Shown: positions 17,433-60,800 of the stretch, in pieces
Position numbering within the stretch: the first letter of the stretch is position 1
Layout: each line of letters begins with the position of its first letter
From: Henricia sp. BOLD:AAB3569
Lineage: Eukaryota > Echinodermata > Asteroidea > Spinulosida > Echinasteridae
DNA length: 64,000 bases
NCBI GenBank assembly: GCA_037783545.1
Contig: JBBELK010000480.1
Coordinates: forward strand, 1,373,001 to 1,437,000
Direction of reading: 5' to 3'
Program-made: the position numbers and the translations under genes
Notes under the pieces: model-generated
Told to the model about the DNA's origin: nothing
The model's input: the letters and a program-made list of their open reading frames with translations, nothing else
Databases searched by the model: none

Positions 17433-20400
17433 ATGGATGTTACAGAGAGTGCATCAGATAGTCCTCAAGTCCTGACAATGGCAGGCGATTATGGTAGCCT
17501 TACTACTTCCCTTTACACAACTGAAGGTAAACTTGTGCTAGAAAGGCATGATCCAATATATTGTTTACTGTGCAAAGTCTGCCAGAAATTCGCTTTACCA
17601 TAGTATTTGAAATTTCTAGTAGTAGAAATGTGGACAGATCGATATCCATGAGTTTGGAAAATCTGGATGTAGTGAAAAACAACTTGGCTCCACCGGGATT
17701 TGAACCGCGGACCTACAGCTTAATGTACAGATGCCCTACCAATTGAGCTATGAAGCCAACTGGTGGTCTCGAACCACAGTATTGCAGTTGTTTTTAACTG
17801 ACTGGGAATGGCTATCACTTGAGCTTAACAAACCCTACAGAGAGATGACACCCCTTCCAGAATTTTCTAGCGTTAAGAATTGAAAAGTTGACAAAAAAAT
17901 AGCATTCTTCCTTAAAATTACTTGTTAAACATCAATAGACCGATCCAGTAAGCTCCGCCCATTTTGGAATTGACCAATCACAGCCTCAGGTTGAGGTAAC
18001 CAAAAAGTGGATCTCCATTTTGGTTACCTGAGTCCTCAAAATTTTGTGCAAAGAGCTACGGCGAAATGCATATATATTTTGTTCTATTCTGAAGCTTTTC
18101 AATATGTGGCATTTTTGTCTTTTTGCAATGAAATGTTTATTATTGTTGTTAATTGTTTGCAGATGATACCTTAACAGGAGGCACAGAGGAAGAGATCGGA
18201 GGAGATGACAAGGGTGCTTCGCCCCTTAGAGAGCAAGACAGGTTCCTGCCTATTGCTAACGTCAGCCGCATTATGAAGAATAGTGTTCCTAAAACAGGCA
18301 AGGTATGAGCTTAAAGGCCCTGTAGATGATCTGTTTTTGAGCGATTCTGCGAATAAAACAATTATAAATCAAAAGAAAGACCTGAACAAACTTATCCCAA
18401 GAAAGCTTTGTCAAATATACCACGTTAAAAAAAAAAATGAAAATCCATATGCGTTTTCCCAGTCTTGGCGGGGTGTTTCAAATATTCGTTCTTAGTTGAT
18501 CAGGTACTATGTGGCTTGCGTCATGCACTCTGTGGCGCACATCATATACCGTAATTTTCGGAATATAAGCCGCGGCTTATACGTTGATTTTGCCAAAAAA
18601 AAGGTTCCCGGCGGCTTATAAACCGGGCGGCTTATACGCCGAGCTCTAAAGATAAAAATCATGATATGCTCATATACATTGTGTAATGTAGTTAAATAGT
18701 TCTATCAATCTTTTACGGGAATTTGTTATTGTCAAAAAACGATGTTGAAGGCCGTCGCACGCGCACGAAAAGGGGTGCAATTTTTCCAGGTGCAGAGAGT
18801 GTACCGATCTTCGTTGGTGACCCATACATCGATGTGACACAGCACAATTAGCGCAGGCAACCAGTTCGCCATCGGACCATGCCATCGGTCGTGAGTACTC
18901 GTCCAACGCCAAACAAATCGTTTGGTGCGTCTGTTCCTTCCGTGTTTTCTTAAATTCTTTACTTTTAGTTGGCGTTATTTTAAAATCCAAAGAGTTCTGT
19001 GTTTGTCATTGTCTGTGGAAATGTGTGTTTTAGATGGAAAATCATTACAAGTAATTTTAATTAACGATGTTTTTCCAACGATGTACAGTCACTTTGCCCA
19101 TGGAGGAAGCCTCCATGCTTTACCCAACTTGAGCCCCTTCGCCCAAAAGCCATTTCGCCCAAGCGGCATACGTTTACGTACGTCCGCAGGCGCAGGCAGG
19201 CAAACGGTCCCCTATTTTAATAAGCCTTTTCGGTATCTCGCGCGCGGTGGCGAGGTCAAAGGTAAATTCGGAACACGTGGCGCCATAGTTCATTCACCGC
19301 CATTGGAGGTGAATGAACTATAGCGACGTCGTGCACAAAAATATGGGGCGGACGCAAATGCGAGAAATCATCGGGAATACCGGTACCAAGCAAAAGACGA
19401 TAGATCTATGTAGCATTCCGCTGAATTACAAATATTAATATCAATCACCCAATCCCAATGAAGCCCCTTTTATGTCAGTTGCAATGTTCTTTTTCAAGTA
19501 ATTTTGAATGATGTATAGTTAATCAACATAAAATGATCTATTGAGATAACCGAATTCGGAAAACAAGAAGGCATAGCGTTTGCACAGCCTTGGTATACTC
19601 CGCTCAAGACGCCCATTGATGATGACCATCGGCTTCAGTTTTTTGCCGCTGGCCGTGCAGGCAAGGACCACCGTGAAGCTGGTTTTCTTATTTATAAACT
19701 CTTTTTGCAAAAATGGAGAGGCCCCGGAACCGTCCAATTATTGATGTTGCAGCCTCGGTCTAAACCCCCGTCCATCTGGTCCAGTACAATGTCTTAATTC
19801 TTTGTCAGTGTCATGTCCTTTGCGTTTTTAGTTTAATCGTGATGGACCCAAACGCATGACAAATGCAATGTAGTGGCAGTACAATACGGAAGCAATCAAA
19901 CATAAAACGTTTGGCATATTTTATTTTGGCCGGTGAGATCAAAATCGCCGAGTCACCATGTGCATTGAAAATAGCCAATCGCGGTGCGCGTAATGGAGAG
20001 ACTTGGCCGGCTATTATCGTACATAGCATATGCGTCGGGCCCGGGCGAAAGCAGTGTACAATTTGTACACGTGGGCTGCGTTCCACTCATGCGAACGTTG
20101 GCAACGTTCGCCTCTGGTTGTGCTCTTTTATCTTGTGCATGCGTACAAGCTGGGAATGTTGTTGGCGAACGTTGCAAACGTTTAACAATGTGCGCGTATT
20201 TGGAACGAAGCCCTGCTTTCACTTACCGTGTTTGTGTATGGCCTGTCGGCCTGGTGCACTGCCGTGTGGCCGCCGTCGGAGAATCCAGCGAATATCTTGA
20301 TGGCTTGCGGCCTTCGATCGTCATCGATGGTATCTAATATACTCTCCTTTATTTTTTGGAGATTTCTTATTATGCACATTCCAAGGCATTTTTAAAATAT

Positions 20401-42899: not shown

Positions 42900-45800
42900 A
42901 TGCTGAGGAGAGACAAGAAAGATGAAGAAGACGGTATGTCGTATTTTACGCTTTAGTTTGTTTTCGTGACAATTTGGAGTGCCTAATTTCCGGACGCAGT
43001 TTAGCCTACTTCCAGATGCTGATATGAAAGGGTTTCGAGTCAACTCGGTCCCAAGTCAACTCGGTCTCGGTCAACTCGGACCCAGGTCAACTCGGTCCCA
43101 AGTCAACTCGGTCCCAAGTCAACTCGGACCTAATTAAGTCAACTCGGTCCCAAGTCAACTCGGACCCTATGGGAAATTGAACGGCAAATTATACCTTTTA
43201 TTTCTGGATGTCCTTCAGATCCTGTAAGGACTTCTTATCTATACATTTTGATATAAAAATATAATTCAATAATAGTTTGTTTTCGCTCGTGATAACTGAT
43301 CGACTTCGTGGTTGTTTGCATTTGTTATACGAACTATTTCAACTGGTACAAGCTTTACTTTTTGAAAATATAATTACAGAAATGCAGGGCAGAATGTACT
43401 TTAAGTACAAAAAAGGAGATTTGCAATGTCCAAAAATGTAATCGACCATTTTGCCTAAAAATCCTTACCTAAGTGGAGTATTTCAGGCCGAGATGATATA
43501 TTTTTATCAGTAAACTATAACGGTATCTGTTTCGGAAAACAATGTCCAAAACCCAACTTTCTTTGGCCATTGATTTTAAACATTTTTTACGTTCAATTTC
43601 CCATGGGGTCCGAGTTGACTTGGGACCGAGTTGACTTGGGACCGAGTTGACTTGGGACCGAGTTGACTTGGGACCGAGTTGACTTGGGACCGAGTTAACC
43701 TGGGACCGAGTTGACCTGGGACCGAGTTGACTTGGGACCGAGTTGACTTGGGACCGAGTTGACCTGTACCCGCTGAAAGCCTACCTCCATGCTGAAAGTA
43801 TCGGCCTGTTTTTTGTTTATTGTTTGTTTGTTTTGTTATTTTATTATGTTGTTATTAGGCCGTTACTTTGAGGATGACGTCATTTTTTTCTCCCATCCCG
43901 TTCGCAGCCCCAAACGGAATCTTTAATCAAGTATTTTTTACTGGAAATTGCAATTTTTGGGGTAAAATCAAAATCTCTACACGTTCTTCATACCTCCCTG
44001 GCCGTAATACTCTAAAAAAGGACGAACACACATCCTTGAAAACCTAATCTTTCAAGACAAATCAGACGACTCGTGTTACTCCAAATTATCGCTGGTAAAG
44101 TCCAGGGTAGGAATTTCGTCTCTTGAGGGGCAAGGCCACTTTGGCCTTAAAGAACCTGTATTTTTTAGGGGCACCACGGCCAGTGAGAAGGGCACCAAGG
44201 CCAATGTAAAAAAGGAAAAAAGGCCACGACTGCCAGTTTAAAATACAAAAGCACAATTCTTATTCAATGTTACGATTCCTGGCATTCACTTTTATAAGTT
44301 TGCAATACACACTGTGACACAAGCATTAAAATAATTGCATGTATAATACCTGAAAGTAAAATATTTCCACAAATGCATAACATTTCCTTTTGGGCAATAT
44401 TTGTCACAAAATTATAAAACAGGCCTAGGCCTATAGTATTAGCAGTTAGACATAGAAGTTAGACTAAACAGAATAAGAAAAACCAGAAAAAAATTCTCCG
44501 GGACAACCCGTGCCTGGGGACGGTCCCAAAGACGTTCGCCCGAGACAACTCGTCCGACGAGACAACTCGTACGCGGGGACAACTCGTCCGACTCAAAACG
44601 AAACAGGGCGCTGACCGGATACGGCATGTGGGGAGAAAACCCACCGACCAACAGGTAAAATCCCGTAGGCTACGGGACGGTAATCCTTTCACATAGTCCA
44701 TAAATAACAGAATCTGCTCAGGTCGGATGTCAAATTTATAAAATAAATTATTTTTCATGACCTACATGTTGATGACCACGGCCAATTTTGAAAAAATTTG
44801 AGCGGATTTTTGAACTCACCCAGAGCCGATTAGGAACGAATTAACGATTCCAGCTTTAATTTCTGCATTTACTGGCCGATCTGTCCAGTTCCAGTTGCTT
44901 GGAGCGTTTCATGCGATCCTTACGTGGCATCGCTGATCAATACACATTTATTACAATCACAGTTATATTTTTAAAACTTCAGCTGATAATTTTAAGGAAT
45001 TTGCGTTTATTTATTTTGCAAAAAAAAGTAGTCACACACGCTGCACTTGTGTTTAGCTGTGGAAGCTTCGAAGAAAAGCAGCACATGCACGTGCACGCTG
45101 TTCACACACCACACACTCCCACTGGATTACTGTATACTCCACATGTATCAGCACGTCTATGCGAGTCTGCAACAGGGGGATGTTCGCGCAATTGTGGCAA
45201 GCGCAATTGCGGTTCTGGAGTTTGCGAAATGAACGGAATAATGTTCAAGCTTTGCGTACAGCCAACACTCTATCAGTACGTACGTGTACACAGTATTGAG
45301 CTGAATCCAGAGTTCGTTACACAGTATATGCACCACATGCATACGGTGCGAGTGCGATGTCCTTTTTTTTCTACATGTACTGTCATGTCAGTACGGCCGC
45401 CATCAATGTACGACCGATGCGCTTTTTTTTAGCGCTTTGCAAATGGACACAAAATGAGTTTCTGACAATGGCATGCTCGTTTTTACAAAAGGGCACTGCG
45501 ACCAAGGTATTAAAAGGGCACAGCATAGTTGGCCGTGGAAACTGCATTTTAAAAAGAGGCATCACGGCAATTAAAAGGGCATCGACGGCAATGGCCGCCG
45601 TGGCCGTTGTGAAATTCCTTCCCTGAAAGTCCAATGTTTAGAGTGCGCATGCGCCAGCCTAAACGTAATACGAAGAATAGACTGGTCCCCTGTCGATGTC
45701 CATGTGCGCTACGCTGCTCTCGGCTGCTCGTTCTTCGCTATACGACGGGGAAGTAAATAAAATAAGGGGAAGTAAATATGATAACAGGCAACCAGTCTAT

Positions 45801-48800: not shown

Positions 48801-51800
48801 ACTTGGCTCCACCGGGATTCGAACCACGGACCTTCTGCTTAATGTGCAGATGCCCTACCAATTGAGCTATGAAGCCAACTGGTGGTCTTGAATCACGGTA
48901 GTCCCGTTGTTCCTCACTGATTGGGTTTGGCTATCACGTGAGCTTAGCAAGCCCTACAGAGAAATAACCACCCCTCCCTGTTAATTGAAAATGTATAATT
49001 AGTGAATTGGGTCTTTCCACGGTAAAGGGGGCATTTTGGCAACACAGACCATACTTTCGAGATAATAACTGTCTGGTCTTAAAATAAAAGGAATAAGTTT
49101 CAGTCGTTCTGAAGAGATAACTTAGGCCCAAAAAAGGTTACAAATGGTGTGACAACATGCCTTTCTAAAAACCCTGTGTACAAATATACGCTCATAACCG
49201 GTACAGACACTTGTGTTGCATGTACATTTTAGGCCGTCCAGGTTACGAGCGTATATTTGAAACTTGTACACAGGATTTTTAGAAAGGCATGTTGTCACAC
49301 TATTTGTAACCCTTTTTGGGCCTAAGTTATCTCTTCAGAACAACTGAAACTTATTTCTTTTATTTTGAGACCAGACAAAGGTATTTTCTGGAAAATATGG
49401 TCTGTGTTGCCAAAATGCCCCCTTTACCGTGGAAAGACTTAATTGGGATTTATCACAGTCTTCCGAAATCCAACGGGGGAGGATTTTGGGATTACAAACC
49501 AAAATCTTCAAATAATTTTGATTCTTCGTAATATAACACTCTGAGAAATGGATTTAATTTCGGTGAGACACTAAACTTGCGTTTTGTTTGTGTACTGTCT
49601 GTAGGGTGAGCACATTGGAACAACAGAGGCTACGGAGACGTTCTTTGCAATGACCAAGCTTTTCCAGTCCAATGACGTAAGTTTCACACGGCCAGCCAGT
49701 GCAAAACCTTTGGGCTAAAGAGTATTGAAAGATGTGGTGTACTTTCCAGCAGGGTTGTAGTCAAGTCCGTGACAAGTCATGCAAAAAGTCCAGTAGCAAG
49801 AAGCAAAGAATGAACACGCACCAAAAAATACCTTTGTTGGAGTTCATTTGAATTAAGACCCAGGGACTTGTGGTGGACTTGTGAAGGCTTGTAAGGACCT
49901 GTGATGGACTCGACAACAACCCTGCTTCCCAGTGGATCAGTTATAAATGGTGGTTTGAAAAAAATAAATATATTTCAGCGAAAAAAGTATGTTACAGTGG
50001 TTTACCCATTGCAAATGGATGGTAGTGCTTCATGAAATCGGCCCGATGACACAAATAATTGTCTTAACTGTGGTCAGGGGATTTAGGCCCAGCGTACATC
50101 GACATTGCAACTGGAAGCAACTCAACTGATTAGTTCCGCAACTAGCGGCAACTGGGAGCATCCAGCTATATCTACATTTCCAGAGCGCGCACATCGACAC
50201 AGCAACTCGGTAAAGTGCAGAGTGCATTGCCCTTGCAACTGGAAACAACTGTGCTTGCAATTGCTGTCGATGTGCGTGCACGTGATCAGATGCACGCGAG
50301 CAACTGGCAGCAACTAGTTGCAAGTACGCGTACATCGACGCAACTGACCGCAACTGGGTACAACTAGTTGCCAGAACGTAGAACATGAGCAACTCGCGGC
50401 AACTGGGATTTTTTCAGTTGCCAGTAGTTGCAAGTGCGAGTACATCGACCGCTTTAAGCAACTGATCAGTTGCTCCCAGTTGCTGCCAGTTGCTTCTAGT
50501 TGCCGGAAACAGCAGTTGCCACTAGTTGCTTCCAGTTGCAAGGTCGATGTACGCTAGGCTTTATGCATCCAGGCCACTAACTAATTTTAAACATGCTTTT
50601 TAAAACTAGCCAAAAGACGGATGTATTGACGTTTCATATATCCTGCAGGTGATGCTCCGTCGCATGGTGTACCTCGTCATTAAAGATATGGCTAACATTG
50701 CTGAAGATGTCATTATTGTGACGAGCAGTCTGACTAAGGACATGACTGGAAAGGAAGACATGTATCGTGCCGCGGCCATCAGGGCACTCTGCAAGATAAC
50801 TGATGTTAGTTCAGCTTTGACTTACTTATTTCATTTGTGACTGACTCTGGCAAAACCTGACGCTTCTCGGCATTTCCCATTACGTGATATGGGCCCACAA
50901 CCTTAAAAAATGGCCTCTCGGACCAACTTGAAAATTTGGCAGAATCAACATCGGGTTACATTCAAGATTTGTTTTGTTGTTTGAACTGTCTCAAAATTCC
51001 TCATATTATTGACAAAAAATTTAATAATCAACTAGTTTGTCAAACTTTGAAGACCAATAGCTCCATTTCACTTTTTCTGATCTGTCATACTTTAATTGGT
51101 CATAACTTCGCCAAAAATTATCAGAATTTCCTCAAACATGTTTCAAAAGATACCTTTTTGTATGCACACTAAGCTGATACCAAAACTTGATGAATTTTCA
51201 TCACAAGTGTTATCTTTCAAATGAGTTGTCCTCAGCCTTCATGCTTTCTTGTATTTGAAATTGTTTCGCTTCTCGCACAGCCTGGGCCAAATTGTCAACA
51301 AATGGTGGATCCAGGCTGATTAAAATACGAATACACAGTTGAAATTTCAGGCAGTAGTCGGATACCACCAGGAATTTGAGTATCATGCAGAATTTTCTTT
51401 GTATTGTCGTATTTAAATGAGACTTGATCCGCCATTGATTTCTAGTTAAGTTCAAATAAGGGCGTGTTTGTTTCGGATGGATCCAGATTCAGATCTGCGC
51501 AGATCCAAGGTGAACTCATTCACTTCGCGCAGATCCTGATCGATATCTGTGATCTGTGGAATCCTTCTCGAGAGATGGTTTAGTGTTAGATCCAAAATGG
51601 CGACGTAAACATCATGAAGATTTTTGTGTGAGTAAAACCGTGTCGTTGCAGTTTTCAGAGGCAACACATGATATTTACGCGATACAAACAAATTTAGGCT
51701 GCTTGTTTATTTACGATAAATGTCGTGGGTGAAATTTGGAACAGAAATTTTACAAATTTGGTAAATAAATTGCAATTCACATGACTTGAGATTTTAGTTT

Positions 51801-54800
51801 AGAGCACTTTCGTTTGTTTCTGTGCGGTAAAACAACTCGGGATCTGGATTCGGATCTGTCATGAAACAAACACGCTACAAGACTTTTGACTTGAGCAACT
51901 CGGCTGCACAACTGTCAGTCACTAACAGTCACCATGTGCAACTGAGTAAAGTATTGTATTCTTATGATGTTTAAGCATCTCTTAACTCTTTCAGTGGCCA
52001 TTGTTATTAACACTTAACTTTTTGCATTTTTCGTAATTTTATGAAATTGAAGCCTTACATGTGCGATGATTGGCGTGTTGGAAGAAGAAAAATGATACAA
52101 TCGAGATCGTACATGTACGATAACACTTTCAGAGTACATACGATAGAACGTACATGTACGACATTGGCACTGAAAGAGTTAAAAAGTTGTGTTCTCATCA
52201 AAGTTTTGTAGCGCATATAGCTACGGCCTCAATGCGCTTAACATCACTAAAAATACAAAGTGCGTAATAACCAAGATTAAAAAATTAAAGATACAGCCAG
52301 CCTGAGCCAGGCATTACCATAAAAGAAATTTTTGTTCACTTAGTTCAAAAAATTGAGACTTGTAATATAGATGCAATTTGACCTAAACATCATCATACAC
52401 TTCATTAAACAAGTACGTCTTAACGCGAGACTTAAATTGCACTAATGTCTGTGAGCTACGGACGGCAGGTGGCATACGGCAGACTATTCCATAGGCGCGG
52501 TGTCGACACCGAAAAGCTCCACCCGTAGGTTGCTGTTTTCACCTTCGGCTCACAAAGTAGATGTTGAGATGCTGACCTCAGTGCCAAATGGGGTTGGTAG
52601 CTTTTAATGAGCTCTGTGATATACGCCGGTGCTCGGCTGTTCAGTGCTTTGGAAGTTAGTAGCATGATCTTGTGTTCTATTCTTTTACGAACCGGTAACC
52701 TATGTGTGTCAGAAGCCTTAAGCTCATGTTGTTTGTTTTGACTGTTTATTCTTCAGACTACAATGCTCCAAGGTATTGAGCGTTATATGAAGCAAGCGAT
52801 CGTTGACAAGGTGCACAGTGTGTCAAGTGCTGCTCTTGCATCGTCTCTGGTAAGTACTATTGGCTGTAGTGCTTAGCACAGGGATGCCAGTCTTCCGTCT
52901 ATAGCCGGAATAGATCGATCCAGTAAGCTCCGCCCATTTAGAAATTGCCTAGCAACATGCCACACATGTGAGGCACGTGTGCAGTAGAGTCGCGTGTCCG
53001 CGCCCTGGTCAGCGCATATTGAAACACGCACACGCACACAGAAACTGCACGCTCGAACGCAAAATGTGCACTTAAGTATCTGGTTGTGTGCATGCACGTA
53101 CAACACGCATGCACGTGTTATGGCCGAGCGGTCTAGTGCGTCGAACTTAAGTTCCCGGCTAGAACGAGAATGTAGGTTCAATTCCGGGCCGCGACGGATT
53201 GTGGCACCTGTGCCCTTGAGCAACCCCTCAACCACACTTGCTCCCATTCCTGTAATTGGCGGTCCATCCGCTGTTGGATGTGGTGAATAAATAAATTACG
53301 CGTAACGCGCGAGATCGAACAAAAACATCTCGACACACATCTAGAACGCAGTGAATGCACAACATAGCAAAACGACAAGCTAATTTTGGTGAGTTTTTAA
53401 GGGATTAAAAGTAGGTTAGGATAGTCTTATACAATCCGTTTTAAACCGGCTAGGGTCCTCTGCGCTGATAAAAAATGATGTTTATGGTGTTTTTGCGTCA
53501 CTCGTGCTGCATTTCGTCGTAGCTTTGTGCAAAAATTTTGAGGACTCGGGTAACCAAAATGGAGATCCACTTTTTGGCTATACCTCAACCTGAGCCTGTG
53601 TTGGTCAATTCCAAAATGGGCGGAACTTACTGGATCGGTCTATTCCGGCTTTTTCTTATTTGGGAAAAAGAAATCCGGCAAAGCCTTTTTTCCAGGCCGG
53701 AAAAGTAAACAGTCAGAAATATAAGGAGAATATATTTTCAACTCTTCAAGTAAAAAAGAAAGTGGAAAATTGTCTCACTTACTGATCAACTATGTCTGGA
53801 TATGTAGCACGTTTCCCAATGATTTACACACATGCAGTATGTATGTATCCCAGCCATAATCATTCACGGCTAAAGTATCGCGAAACCAGACTATCGATCA
53901 GAAGTACATAGAGGGCGCTGTATCCATACAGCAGTGGTTAGACCACATACATACTGACATATCCATTGCATTGCACTTATCAATGTACATACTGTACAGT
54001 ATACTGTGCTGGCGAGTCCATATGCACACATACGTGCAGTTATGATAGTGGATTATTGTCAGGCCCTGAAGGTAAGAGCCACTGCTATTCCTGTTAGCAA
54101 CATCCCAAGAACTTGTAGAAAATGTTTGTCCCAGATTCCTGATGTCGTCAAGCGTGGGGTGAATGAAGGGCAGGAAGCAGCTACCAGTCATAATATGATG
54201 GTTCAATACCACACTCTGGGGCTTAATTATTAATTGATAGATTATTGGTTATTGATCACAGCACCTGTTGTCTCAAAGTCCAGCAGCCGATTTCACGAAA
54301 CTTACGCAGTTGCGTAAGCCCACTTGCGCAACGTTTTATTGCGTAAGTTGCGCAACATTTTATTGCGTATTTAAAGTTGCACAACAATTTAACGATGATA
54401 ACACGCAAGTTATATGGGCCTTGCGCCATTTTCCAAAGTTGCGCAAGCTGCGCACTCTTTCGTGAAATTGGCTGCAGATGTCGTCAAGCGCTGGGTAAAT
54501 GAAGCTCAGGAAGCAGCTACCAGCGACAACGTGATGGTTAAATACCACGCTTTGGGGCTTATTAATTATTAATTGATCGATTATTGGTTATTGATTACAG
54601 CACCTGTTGTCCCAAAGTCCCGATGTCGTCAAGCGCTGGGTAAATGAAGCTCAGGAAGCAGCTACTAGCGACAACGTGATGGTTCAATACCACGCTTTGG
54701 GGCTTATTAATTATTAATTGATCGATTATTGCTTATTGATTACAGCACCTGTTGTCCCAAAGTCCCGATGTCGTCAAGCGCTGGGTAAATGAAGCTCAGG

Positions 54801-57800
54801 AAGCAGCTACCAGCGACAACGTGATGGTTAAATACAACGCTTTGGGGCTTATTAATTATTAATTGATCGATTATTGGTTATTGATTACAGCATCTATTGT
54901 CCCAAAGTCCCGATGTCGTCAAGCGCTGGGTAAATGAAGCTCAGGAAGCAGCTACTAGCGACAACGTGATGGTTCAATACCACGCTTTGGGGATTATACA
55001 TGTATATCCCCAAAACTATTGATCAGTATTTGATTATTTATTGATTACTGATGATTGATTATTGATTACCTATTGATTACCTATTGATTGATTGATTACC
55101 GATTATTGATTGATTACTGATGATTGATTATTGATTACCGACTGATTGATTGATTATTGCTTATTGATAACCGATTATTGATTACAGCATCTATTGTCCC
55201 AAAGTCCCGATGTCGTCAAGCGTTGGGTAAATGAAGCTCAGGAAGCAGCTACTAGCGACAACGTGATGGTTAAATACCACGCTTTGGGGCTTATTAATTA
55301 TTATTTGATCGATTATTGGTTATTGATTACAGCACCTGTTGTCCCAAAGTCCCGATGTCGTCAAGCGTTGGGTGAATGAAGCTCAGGAAGCAGCAACCAG
55401 CGACAACGTGATGGTTCAATACCACGCTTTGGGGCTTATTAATTATTAATTGATCGATTATTGGTTATTGATTACAGCATCTATTGTCCCAAAGTCCCGA
55501 TGTCGTCAAGCGTTGGGTAAATGAAGCTCAGGAAGCAGCTACTAGCGACAACGTGATGGTTCAATACCACGCTTTGGGGCTTATTTATCACATCCGTAAG
55601 AACGACCGTTTAGCCATTACTAAAATGGTGGGCAAGTACACCCGCGGGGGCCTCAAGTCACCGTACGCTACGTGCATGTTGGTAAGTATGAGGTGGTTGG
55701 GTACCATACTTGACTCAACGGCTGCCCATGTTGAATTTAAAGGCCCATTGTATCATTTGCAATAAGCCAATTTCGTTTTTCATGAGTTGACAAGAAAAAC
55801 TTTACTCAAAGTGTTGATATAGCAATGGTAACGAACACCACATGAATTTATTTCCGTCCAAAATGGTATTTCATGTTGGAAATTGACAACCGAAAGTGGT
55901 TTTCTAAAAAAGTCCCATGCACTGGACTTTACCATTCACTTGTACACAAAATCCATATATAGATTTTCATTTGCCTAAAATCATTTGCCTACTTCTAGGA
56001 TTGATCATAAAATGGTTCTTCCTTTTTCTGTCAGATCCGGATTGCATCCAAGCTTCTTGAAGACGAGGATGCCGGGTAAGTTCTTGACCAGTTTTAAGAT
56101 TTATTGGGGACAAGGCTAGTTTGAAGATTTTTACTCTGCCCTTTATTTCAGTTTTGTGCAGTGTATGCATTTTCTTTTTAACACCATTTCACTTATTAAT
56201 TACAGTGGGGGGAAAATACATTATAATTTAATAGTTGTGATTTTTACTATAGCAGAATGTCTGTAATGAAGTGTTTGTTATTGCGCCTTTTATCTGTATA
56301 TGTGAGCTGCTCCACCGAAAGTAGGCGCTTGTCGCACAGGCCAGAACTGAGATAATGGCTAATTTATGCATGCATGTCAAGAAGGGCATTTGTTATCAAT
56401 ACCAGGATTTCTGCATGAGACCACCTTTTAAGTATCCATCTATCGCCTAAAGAAGTTTAAGTGAATAAATACTACCAGAAAACAGCATTTTAAATGCCTA
56501 AAACGTGTGAAATAACCCAATTCTGGCATTTTACAAACTGGGGGGTGGGGTCGGGGTTAGGCCGTGCGAAGAGGGTTAAAAAGGTATTGAGGACTGCTAT
56601 TCTTGTTCATTCTTGCTGAAACACCACCCACACATGTTTTCCTAGGTATAGAGCTTTTGGAGTCAGAATTTGCATGGTTGCTAAGGACTTTATGCCTTAA
56701 CAGAAGTACAACCTTCTACGCCATTTTTCTCTAAAGCGCTTTTTAAAGAATTGTGCTCTTGGTCATCACGGAAATGGTCATAACTTGGTCGATTTGACGG
56801 ATTAACACAATGTTTGTAGTTTTGTGAAGCTTATAATATACTCTATCTGATTAGGTCATTAGCTCCATTTTCATTTTTTTATGCAAGAGCCTACTTTTGG
56901 CATCCTCTTGCAACAGTGCCCCTTTAACACACTCCTGCGTACAGTGGCCCTGTTGAAAAAGGCCCTATTTCGCGGTGGGACTAGCGACAGAAATCTTGTC
57001 GCCTCGGCTGGACCAATCAGGACGCTTGGCAGTGCATTGTAGCATGATTGCAGGCATTCAAATGTAACGCGCGCAGATTGTAAACACCGTGCATGCATGT
57101 GATACATGTACTCGGTAATGCTGGCCGTTGTCCGCGTCGACGATTGGCTGCTATTTAAAGCATACTGGGGAATCCGTTCCATTACATTCGTCAGCATGCA
57201 TCCCTGTTATTAATTTGAAAAACTGCGGAGTAAATTAAGATCGTCGTTTGAAAGTTTGATAGGAATGGGACAGTCATAAGGAACGGAACCGAATACAATT
57301 TCTGGAAAGTATAGAAATCGTTTCTTTTCGGCATAACATGACCGAATTGATTAAATTACATCAAAATGACTCAGGCGTGAGTTGGCTCAAGACAACAGCC
57401 GGCTCACTCCACAGATTTGCGTGTGTTTCCTCAGGGTATTGTTACGTCGCTTTGCAGAGTGGAAATTCCCTGATATCTCAGGATGACTTTTGGTGGAGTG
57501 GCTCACATGGCTGTGGGAATTACACAAGATATAGATTTTGTTAACATTATAAGTTAAATGTTTTATTTATTTTGCTTTCAGCAGTGACAGTCCACTGTTT
57601 GACTTCATCGAAGGCTGTTTGCGACATAAAAGCGAGGTGAGTCAGTTTGAATTAGCGCTGGGAGTTACCGTTTATTTTTCTAAACGTTTAAACGTCAATT
57701 TAACGTTCGTTTAAAGGAGCGTGACCAGAGTTTCTGGAAAATAGTTTTCGATGTAACTTACCAATATTATCAAGTAACTCCCATACACACCTCCCATGTC

Positions 57801-60800
57801 CCAAAAACCCCAAAACATTCGCAATTTCCAGTAAAAAAATTAACAAAACTATCGAGTCGGCTTTCAGTGTATAAACGTTGATACTAGAAAATTAGTTTAC
57901 AAATAATCGGTGGATTTTCGACGATATCCTCGGAAATATGCGGCCTAGAAGCGCGGGAGTTTCAGTTTCGTAATCAGAAAAATATAACGGATGTTATGAT
58001 ATAAAAATCTCATGACCCATAAGGTAAGTCCCGGGGAGTTATGGGTAAAAAAAAGTGATCAGGTCACACTCCTTTAAACGTTTAAACGAATAGTAAACAT
58101 AACAAAAAGTAAAACTTAGTACCGCGCTCGAGCTCGCAATATAAAGTTCTTTGATCTGGTATCATGTGCGTTCGCGCGGCACCACTGACACTTTATTAAA
58201 TTGGAGCATACATGATGCAGGCCACGAAAGTTCAGCTAGGCTTTGCTGTAATTGGATACTTTCGAGAAGTCACTCAAACCCAAAGTAAAACCATCAGTAA
58301 AATCGCTTCCGCCCACGAACGCAACTTTACATCTTCAGCTTGAAACCACAAAGGTTACCGACGTATGCTGCCTGATTCTTTCAGAACAAAACTGCCTCTT
58401 TTGAAATTTCCTGCGGCACAAAACGGCCATTAGATCTTTGAAAAAGGGAGGATCGTTTTTTCACAAGTTGGTTTCGGATATGAGCATTTTTTTTTATGGA
58501 TACCGGCGCATTATAAATTTTCATTATTATTATTATTATATCCGTTTAGCATTTTTCTAAACGGATAGTTAAATGTTTTGGATGTTTAAATGTTTACACG
58601 GTCGCAGCACTAGTTTGAATTACCAAACTACATTTAAATTGAGCATAGAAATGTGGCCAAGGTGGGATTCGAACTAGAGCCTTTGTATTTCCCTGTATAC
58701 TATTATAACCATTGCCTATTTCTATTGCCCAGATGGTCATCTATGAGGCAGCTCATGCTATTGTTAACATGAGGAACACCACAGCCAGGGAACTGGCTCC
58801 TGCCGTGTCAGTCCTACAGTTGTTTCTCAGCTCGCCGAAACCGACACTGCGATTCGCTGCTACCAAGACGCTCAACAGGGTATGTAGGCTGCGTCAAAAC
58901 TATCTTTAAATTATGCTTGAGTCAATATCGACGTTTGTGTAATTCCATAAAGGGGTGTGAAATTTCAGATTTTTAACTGATTTCAGCTTTTTTTGTAATG
59001 TGCCAAAATTTAATTTCAGCTTTTTTTTTCTCCGGACATTTTTCCGCTTTTTTTCCCTCATGCGTAAGCGTTGATTTTATTTTCCGATTTTTTCCTACAG
59101 TACGGTACTTGCCACTTGCTAGCGCACGCCATGTGCAAGCCAGTATTCAGTACAAAATATCATTCTCGAAGCCATAAAATGCACCAACTGAGACATTAAT
59201 TCATCAAGATGTCGGTGCAACTTAAGCGGGCCCCGGACCCCACGCCGTTAGGGCTTGGGGCTTTGCGCTCGCAATGTCAGCTTCACGATTGCAGTTTCAG
59301 ATTTTGTTGGTGTTCTCCACTCACAGCTCTGGCTGTATAACTCTCCCGGATTTGGCAACAGGAAGCCTGGAAAATCACTGATCTCACGATTCCCAACACG
59401 GATAAAAACTTTCCTAGATGTAAATTAACAATCTCCGAGATTTCCCACTTAGTCTGATGTTGAATGTTTTATCAAAAATTCAGGAAGATTTTTCAGTCAT
59501 CCTTTCAGAAACTTTCCTTGTCACACGATCTCATATTCCCAAAGACACATGCCAAACTAAATAATAAAACACTCTACAACGGTAACATAAAACATTTCCA
59601 AAATTGAATTTTTTCCTCAGGTTGCTATGACACACCCCGCCGCAGTCACCGCCTGTAACTTGGACCTAGAGAACCTGATCACAGACGTCAATCGCAGCAT
59701 CGCGACTCTGGCCATCACAACCTTACTGAAAACTGGTAGTGAGAGCAGCGTGGAGCGACTCATGAAGCAAATCTCTACGTTCATGTCGGAGATCTCAGAT
59801 GAGTTTAAGGTGGTGGTAGTCCAAGCCGTCCGCTCGCTGTGCACCAAGTTCCCTCGCAAGCATAGCATCATGATGAACTTCTTGTCTTCCATGCTCAGAG
59901 ACGAGGTGAGAAGGGGCTAAGACGCATCTTAGGAAGGGTCACTTTTCTTATCTTGGGACGTTGGTATGGGAATTAAGATGCATGAACTCGTCTTAACTTT
60001 TGTGAAATCAATCCCAGGTCTCGGTGGTTAGTTGATAATTTGTACTAACTGGCGAGACCTGTTACTTGATTTAAATACATGACCAGGGGCCGATTTCATA
60101 ATGGCGCTAAGAGGAAGGGTAACTCGCCTTATCTTGGGACATTGGTATGTGAATAAGGACGTATAACTCATCTGAACTTTTGTGAAAGAGATCCCAGGTC
60201 AACTACATCGTACTGAATCCTTCCGAATCTTTGACAAGACATAGTTAGCAGGGTTGTAGTCGAATTCATCACAAGTCCGGTGATGATAAATCACAAATAT
60301 GTCACAAGTCTATCACAAGTCTATCACAAGTCTATCACAAGTCTATCACAAGTCTATCACAAGTCTATCACAAGTCTATCACAAGTCTGTTACAAGCAAC
60401 AAAGGACGAAAGAACGGCTTCATTTGAATAGCTGGTTACTAGCTTCAAGACCCAAGAACTATTTGTGGACTTGTAAAGGCTTGTGATGGATTCAACTCGA
60501 ACATTGATTTCTTGTTCTTTGTATATCACAAATGTGCGGGTTGCACTTGTTTAGCGCAGTGTTTTTTATTTCCTAAGTACACTCCTTTTAACCTTTTAAA
60601 CCCAATAGCACTCACTGGTAACAAGTAGTGTGTCTTTTTGGTAATGTTCAGTAATGTTCCTTGTCAAGGTCAATAATCAAAGTTAGTAGCCACCCTTACT
60701 GAACACAAGATTTGAGATGAATTTAGAAACACGAGAAAATTGCAGTGCCCCGACTGGGATTCGAACCCAGGTCCTTGGCATACATGGCCAACTGAGCTAT

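Follow-up and report, generated by a model that had tools for sequence, protein, structure and literature searches.

The array of partial exons that precedes exon 7 of the coatomer gamma gene (COPG) in the sea star Henricia sp. is probably a polymorphic, near-neutral "mirage", i.e. a minisatellite whose repeat unit spans a 3' splice site. Three observations underlie this view: the unit spans an intron/exon boundary, an intact boundary (that of exon 7, at positions 55478-55681) is retained beside the repeat copies, and the number of copies differs between haplotypes. A tandem duplication would have been followed by unequal exchange or slippage, resulting in a turnover of copies which may sometimes swap sequence between the decoys and the true exon. 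Splicing would bypass the decoys, as the last acceptor alone has a strong donor at a distance typical of an exon, and the use of an intact decoy would produce an exon of at least 349 nt with an in-frame stop, a transcript expected to undergo nonsense-mediated decay. No regulatory role is necessary in such an account. The window, as the term is used here, is the whole stretch of 64,000 nucleotides that was analyzed (positions 1,373,001 to 1,437,000 of contig JBBELK010000480.1, here C480), within an assembly of 740.7 Mb. Plain positions refer to the window, and those with the prefix C480 to the contig.

The exon 7 array and its host gene

Matches to Pfam Adaptin_N and to coatomer gamma-1 in the PDB show that the exons surrounding the array encode coatomer gamma, as the initial annotation had proposed. 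The fitted model on C480 comprises 21 coding exons and 20 GT-AG introns. A 570-residue query of joined exons exhibits, among the best 120 of 5673 matches, 91% identity to Acanthaster planci, 90% to an unnamed protein, 82% to sea urchins and 76% to Branchiostoma, which points to a sea star as the host. Exon 6 (52757-52849, forward strand) ends in the donor CTG/GTAAGT, the slash marking the junction; its location after position 52849, already given in the initial annotation, was recovered by tblastn and fitted splice sites. The same approach defined the intact exon 7 (55478-55681, forward strand) of 204 nt, with the donor TTG/GTAAGT.

Between these two exons, TRF detected a tandem array at 54477-55585, with a period of 145 and 7.6 copies, and reading outward from this span revealed one older copy plus the initial portion of a further one. 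Each 145-bp unit combines 37 nt of the intron end with 108 nt of the exon start. The reported set of seven partial copies upstream of intact exon 7 is confirmed. Their exon parts, all on the forward strand, start at 54119 (degenerate), 54262, 54601, 54746, 54891, 55188 and 55333. The five copies from 54601 to 55333 are open and near-identical across the 108 nt, and the array is therefore not due to chance.

The copies are less uniform than first described. The ACAG acceptor, attributed to every copy with an imperfection in the first, is kept in six of the seven; the first copy (54119-54230) carries TAG in its place, with a very poor acceptor score of -13.0. The coding frame, also said to be kept throughout, is shifted in this first copy by one extra base, leading to an early TGA at 54140. 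In the second copy (54262-54563) the acceptor is intact, and the exon part is split by an insert of about 195 bp, within which the frame read from the copy's own acceptor ends (TGA at 54463). The ending Leu-Ile-Asn-Tyr-TAA, originally assigned to each copy, is found in three of the seven, namely those with exon parts at 54601-54708 (where the sequence ...GLI is followed by NY and TAA), 54746-54853 and 55333-55440, while the other four meet different stops. After the copy at 54891-54998 comes a long spacer rich in TTGATTA (54999-55187), where the copy's frame ends at TGA 55020, and the copy at 55188-55295 bears a seam variant which carries its frame past Leu-Ile-Asn-Tyr to TGA 55377. All seven partial copies, read onward, run into a stop.

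The insert in the second copy (54282-54476, limits set by eye) is a MITE-like element with terminal inverted repeats and internal repeats of the TTGCGTAAG type. At least 46 further rows elsewhere in the genome match it, with 40 of 2700 candidates scored.

Matches to COPG are confined to C480 and a second contig, C70 (40 rows), and collinearity of the two contigs extends for more than 110 kb, with 89-98% identity in pieces longer than 800 bp and with insertions between them. For both reasons the assembly is taken to contain both haplotypes, C70 being the allelic contig of C480. The seven partial copies of exon 7 on C480 are set against a single degenerate copy on C70, where a weak AG scores -1.9 and where the order within intron 6 is degenerate copy, long TTGATTA-rich spacer and true exon 7. 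Accompanying this difference, intron 6 is 2628 nt long on C480 versus 1428 nt on C70. A spacer resembling that of C70 separates the copies at 54891 and 55188, its only occurrence within the C480 array. The most economical scenario would be a two-copy ancestor with subsequent expansion on the C480 lineage; a loss of copies on C70 is a possible alternative.

Acceptor arrays in COPG and ACTR8

Arrays that span a 3' splice site were found at three exons of COPG and two of the neighboring gene, ACTR8 (PDB 4fo0, E = 8.8e-39), and the copy number of all five differs between the haplotypes. At COPG exon 10 (58733-58879, forward strand) the array is absent on C480, while C70 has one extra copy, in which 65 bp around the acceptor are duplicated in tandem. 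The exon 20 array, with a 167-bp unit, lies 6 kb past the end of the window (C480:1443096-1444461) and numbers seven acceptor-bearing copies on C480 versus none on C70, though both haplotypes retain a truncated fragment, and its seam is identical in the two. In ACTR8, exon A has a 130-bp unit (C480:1359996-1360890) in three partial copies on C480 versus two on C70, one of them degenerate in each case, and exon B a 154-bp unit (C480:1356538-1357618) in six copies versus three.

Across 144 kb of C480, TRF gave 12 merged loci with a period of at least 60, five of which belong to four acceptor arrays, the array of ACTR8 exon A being split into two loci in this count. When the COPG arrays with a period of at least 60 were pooled over the haplotypes, three of five spanned a splice site (P = 0.016, post hoc); that the splice sites concerned are all acceptors gave P = 0.003, again post hoc. 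With exon 7 left out, the preference for splice sites gave P = 0.068, likewise post hoc.

A blunt survey of other conserved exons found no tandem same-range pairs in 67 matched rows for CCT and none in 87 for actin; its sensitivity is limited in that even a close protein query detected the exon 7 decoys and missed those of exon 20, and short decoys can escape it. The high density of acceptor arrays is not general, since these rows yielded 0 of 154. For the same reason, the local richness in arrays is left unexplained by the mirage reading.

Choice of the acceptor

The seven decoy acceptors originally counted are reduced to six of good score by the degeneration of the first. These six score between 5.3 and 11.6, compared to 11.6 for the true exon 7 acceptor, using a matrix built without the true exon 7 site, the matrices being derived from 20 sites of one gene. 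In the last 13 bases of the intron, five of the six decoys are identical to the true acceptor, and that at 54262 differs at one base. As decoy and true acceptors score alike, the choice among them must come from elsewhere.

Exon definition predicts the choice of the last acceptor. This acceptor alone gives a 204-nt exon with a strong donor (score 9.4), whereas an exon starting at the next one would measure 349 nt and so exceed all 19 internal exons of COPG, which range from 41 to 285 nt. Since a strong donor is found at an exon-like distance from the last acceptor only, exon definition should select that acceptor. Judged from the arrangement of the sites, favoring of the last acceptor through its own downstream donor would be the best mechanism available, and this half of the two-way proposal in the initial annotation is the one retained; the other half, a poison exon, is not supported.

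The partial copies had also been described as having no donor. In fact a donor-like site occurs in all seven, 39 nt past the acceptor in the intact copies, and it is weaker than the true donor: TGG/GTAAAT scores 5.9, TGG/GTGAAT in the copy at 55333 scores 3.8, and GGG/GTGAAT in the first copy scores 5.9. A score of 5.9 falls within the leave-one-out range of 20 real COPG donors (-2.0 to 11.1). Stops do follow the decoys, and the only donors that these possess themselves are weak donor-like sites, which would yield short in-frame segments.

The likeness of the acceptors in score and in their last 13 intron bases may suggest that the decoys leak, whereby the long allele would lose a measurable share of COPG transcript through premature stops and decay, as a mild and unregulated load. 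This is unlikely, however, given that intact decoys would impose exons of at least 349 nt in a gene of shorter internal exons, and that RT-PCR reported for a comparable array in an amphioxus globin gene suggested regular splicing (PMC3087553).

Variation among the copies

Ten sites of exon 7 are variable when the five intact decoys are compared with each other and with the two true exons, seven of the sites with synonymous and three with non-synonymous changes, the latter found in the decoys alone. Free change would be expected to yield 22-28% synonymous sites, for which seven of ten gives P = 0.001-0.007, on the assumption of independent sites, which shared copies violate. Two of the sites (positions 103 and 108) belong to the seam of the 54891 copy, and without both the synonymous count is six of eight. 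In the first 39 nt of the exon part the variation is solely synonymous. In array B of ACTR8, seven of eight variable sites are synonymous and the C480 decoys grade towards the true exon. The exon 20 decoys show two synonymous and five non-synonymous changes before the seam, counted manually on the alignment, versus 4 and 12 in a scripted count which includes the seam and two true exons. All of these samples are small. The exon 20 decoys look as though they vary like unconstrained sequence. The synonymous excess in exon 7 might, in principle, reflect constrained decoys; together with that in array B of ACTR8, it is read here as the probable outcome of recent copying from, or exchange with, a selected exon, since some of the synonymous variants are common to the true exons.

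A different use of the copies is conceivable, which speaks against the mirage reading: the in-copy donor-like sites could define in-frame mini-exons of 39 nt, such that splicing from a copy's acceptor to its own donor and on to the next acceptor would add 13-residue segments, a latent form of intron gain. The site TGG/GTAAAT (5.9) is close to the real exon 18 donor CCG/GTAAAT (5.6, leave-one-out), and the purely synonymous variation of the first 39 nt would also favor this idea. Nevertheless, the possibility appears quite remote. The same donor-like site is present in the true exon, which codes for conserved COPG sequence over all of its 204 nt; the added segments would be inserted into a conserved protein of helical repeats; and exons of 39 nt are small for recognition by exon definition. 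A precedent for such an event is the RdRp gene of potato, which acquired an intron when a segment crossing an intron-exon boundary was duplicated, the donor being derived from a formerly exonic part, as in the sea star array. In potato, however, the new intron was detected, while the sea star has many copies and a donor that is predicted (PMC4974935).

That every partial copy leads to a stop is in favor of poison-exon control, raised in the initial annotation, by which decoy-driven truncation of COPG would act as a regulated switch. This can hardly be sustained, as the other allele carries a single degenerate copy rather than seven, the long or sole array resides on one haplotype at each of three COPG acceptors, the exon 20 decoys look unconstrained, and nothing in this assembly indicates that the element is conserved.

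Tandem repeats are often misassembled. An artefact of this kind nevertheless looks very unlikely here, because variants private to single copies, one insert and a long spacer of its own kind occur within the array, and similar arrays are found on two contigs, some with common seams, even though the draft version of one amphioxus mirage appeared aberrantly assembled (PMC3087553).

Relation to known mirages

The closest known relative of the sea star array is the mirage of the amphioxus globin gene BflGb6, in which the 3' end of an intron and the 5' part of the following exon are repeated in tandem, in units of 150-160 bp with 81-100% identity, six on one haplotype and three on the other (PMC3087553). 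The sea star array has the same anatomy and likewise varies between haplotypes. The edges of the BflGb6 cluster were excluded from homogenization, another globin gene, BflGb9, duplicates the opposite (3') exon boundary, and somatic length instability is cited there for the mirage of Adh3 (PMC3087553). Unlike the cephalochordate BflGb6, the present case comes from a sea star, in which a single gene has three acceptors of this kind. In the amphioxus PGBD5 gene, 60- and 108-bp repeats overlap splice sites and differ in copy number between two genomic sequences, and the authors, who also cite the mirages of Adh3 and troponin C (TnC), hold that splicing is undisturbed (PMC3902484). In contrast to the sea star array, the repeats of PGBD5 adjoin 5' splice sites, and they are imperfect. 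Among the open-access literature matches listed, mirages in this sense are described in amphioxus only (PMC3087553, PMC3902484), with no echinoderm case. As far as the literature search reaches, a mirage outside the cephalochordates, and three in one gene, are new.

A tentative extension, which at present invites more doubt than belief, is that tandem amplification recurrently strikes the acceptor regions of sea star genes, some of which would carry polymorphic stacks of 3' splice sites. These stacks would be silenced only by exon definition, would exchange with the true exon and would feed intron gain. If so, mirages would represent a wider deuterostome mutational process, extending beyond lancelets. 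Echinoderm mirages would widen a phenomenon seen, in the literature matches listed, in amphioxus only, and would make the proposed link with intron gain testable in another phylum. The heterozygous animal, in whose cells two alleles of one gene, one long and one short, occur together, also constitutes a natural experiment on the choice that the spliceosome makes between near-identical acceptors.

Other repeats in the region

A 164-bp duplication at the end of a trypsin-like exon (C480:1470983-1471292) was not counted among the acceptor arrays, as it may concern a terminal exon with its stop; the segment is read as present twice on C480 and once on C70. A satellite of 77-78 bp, whose unit looks tRNA-derived by eye, occurs at positions 1-609 and at C480:1440191-1440996, and within a COPG intron it amounts to 10.4 copies on C480 versus 17.8 on C70. 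A proline-rich, in-frame repeat of 96 bp in four copies (C480:1339452-1339831) resides inside a long open reading frame. Two tRNA-like matches lie on the minus strand of the window, one at 48803-48877, recognized by both ARAGORN and Rfam, and one at 17685-17757, recognized by Rfam only. Finally, two 16-bp minisatellites (AGTCAACTCGGTCCCA) are located at 43038-43167 and 43606-43763, in opposite orientation and about 440 bp apart.
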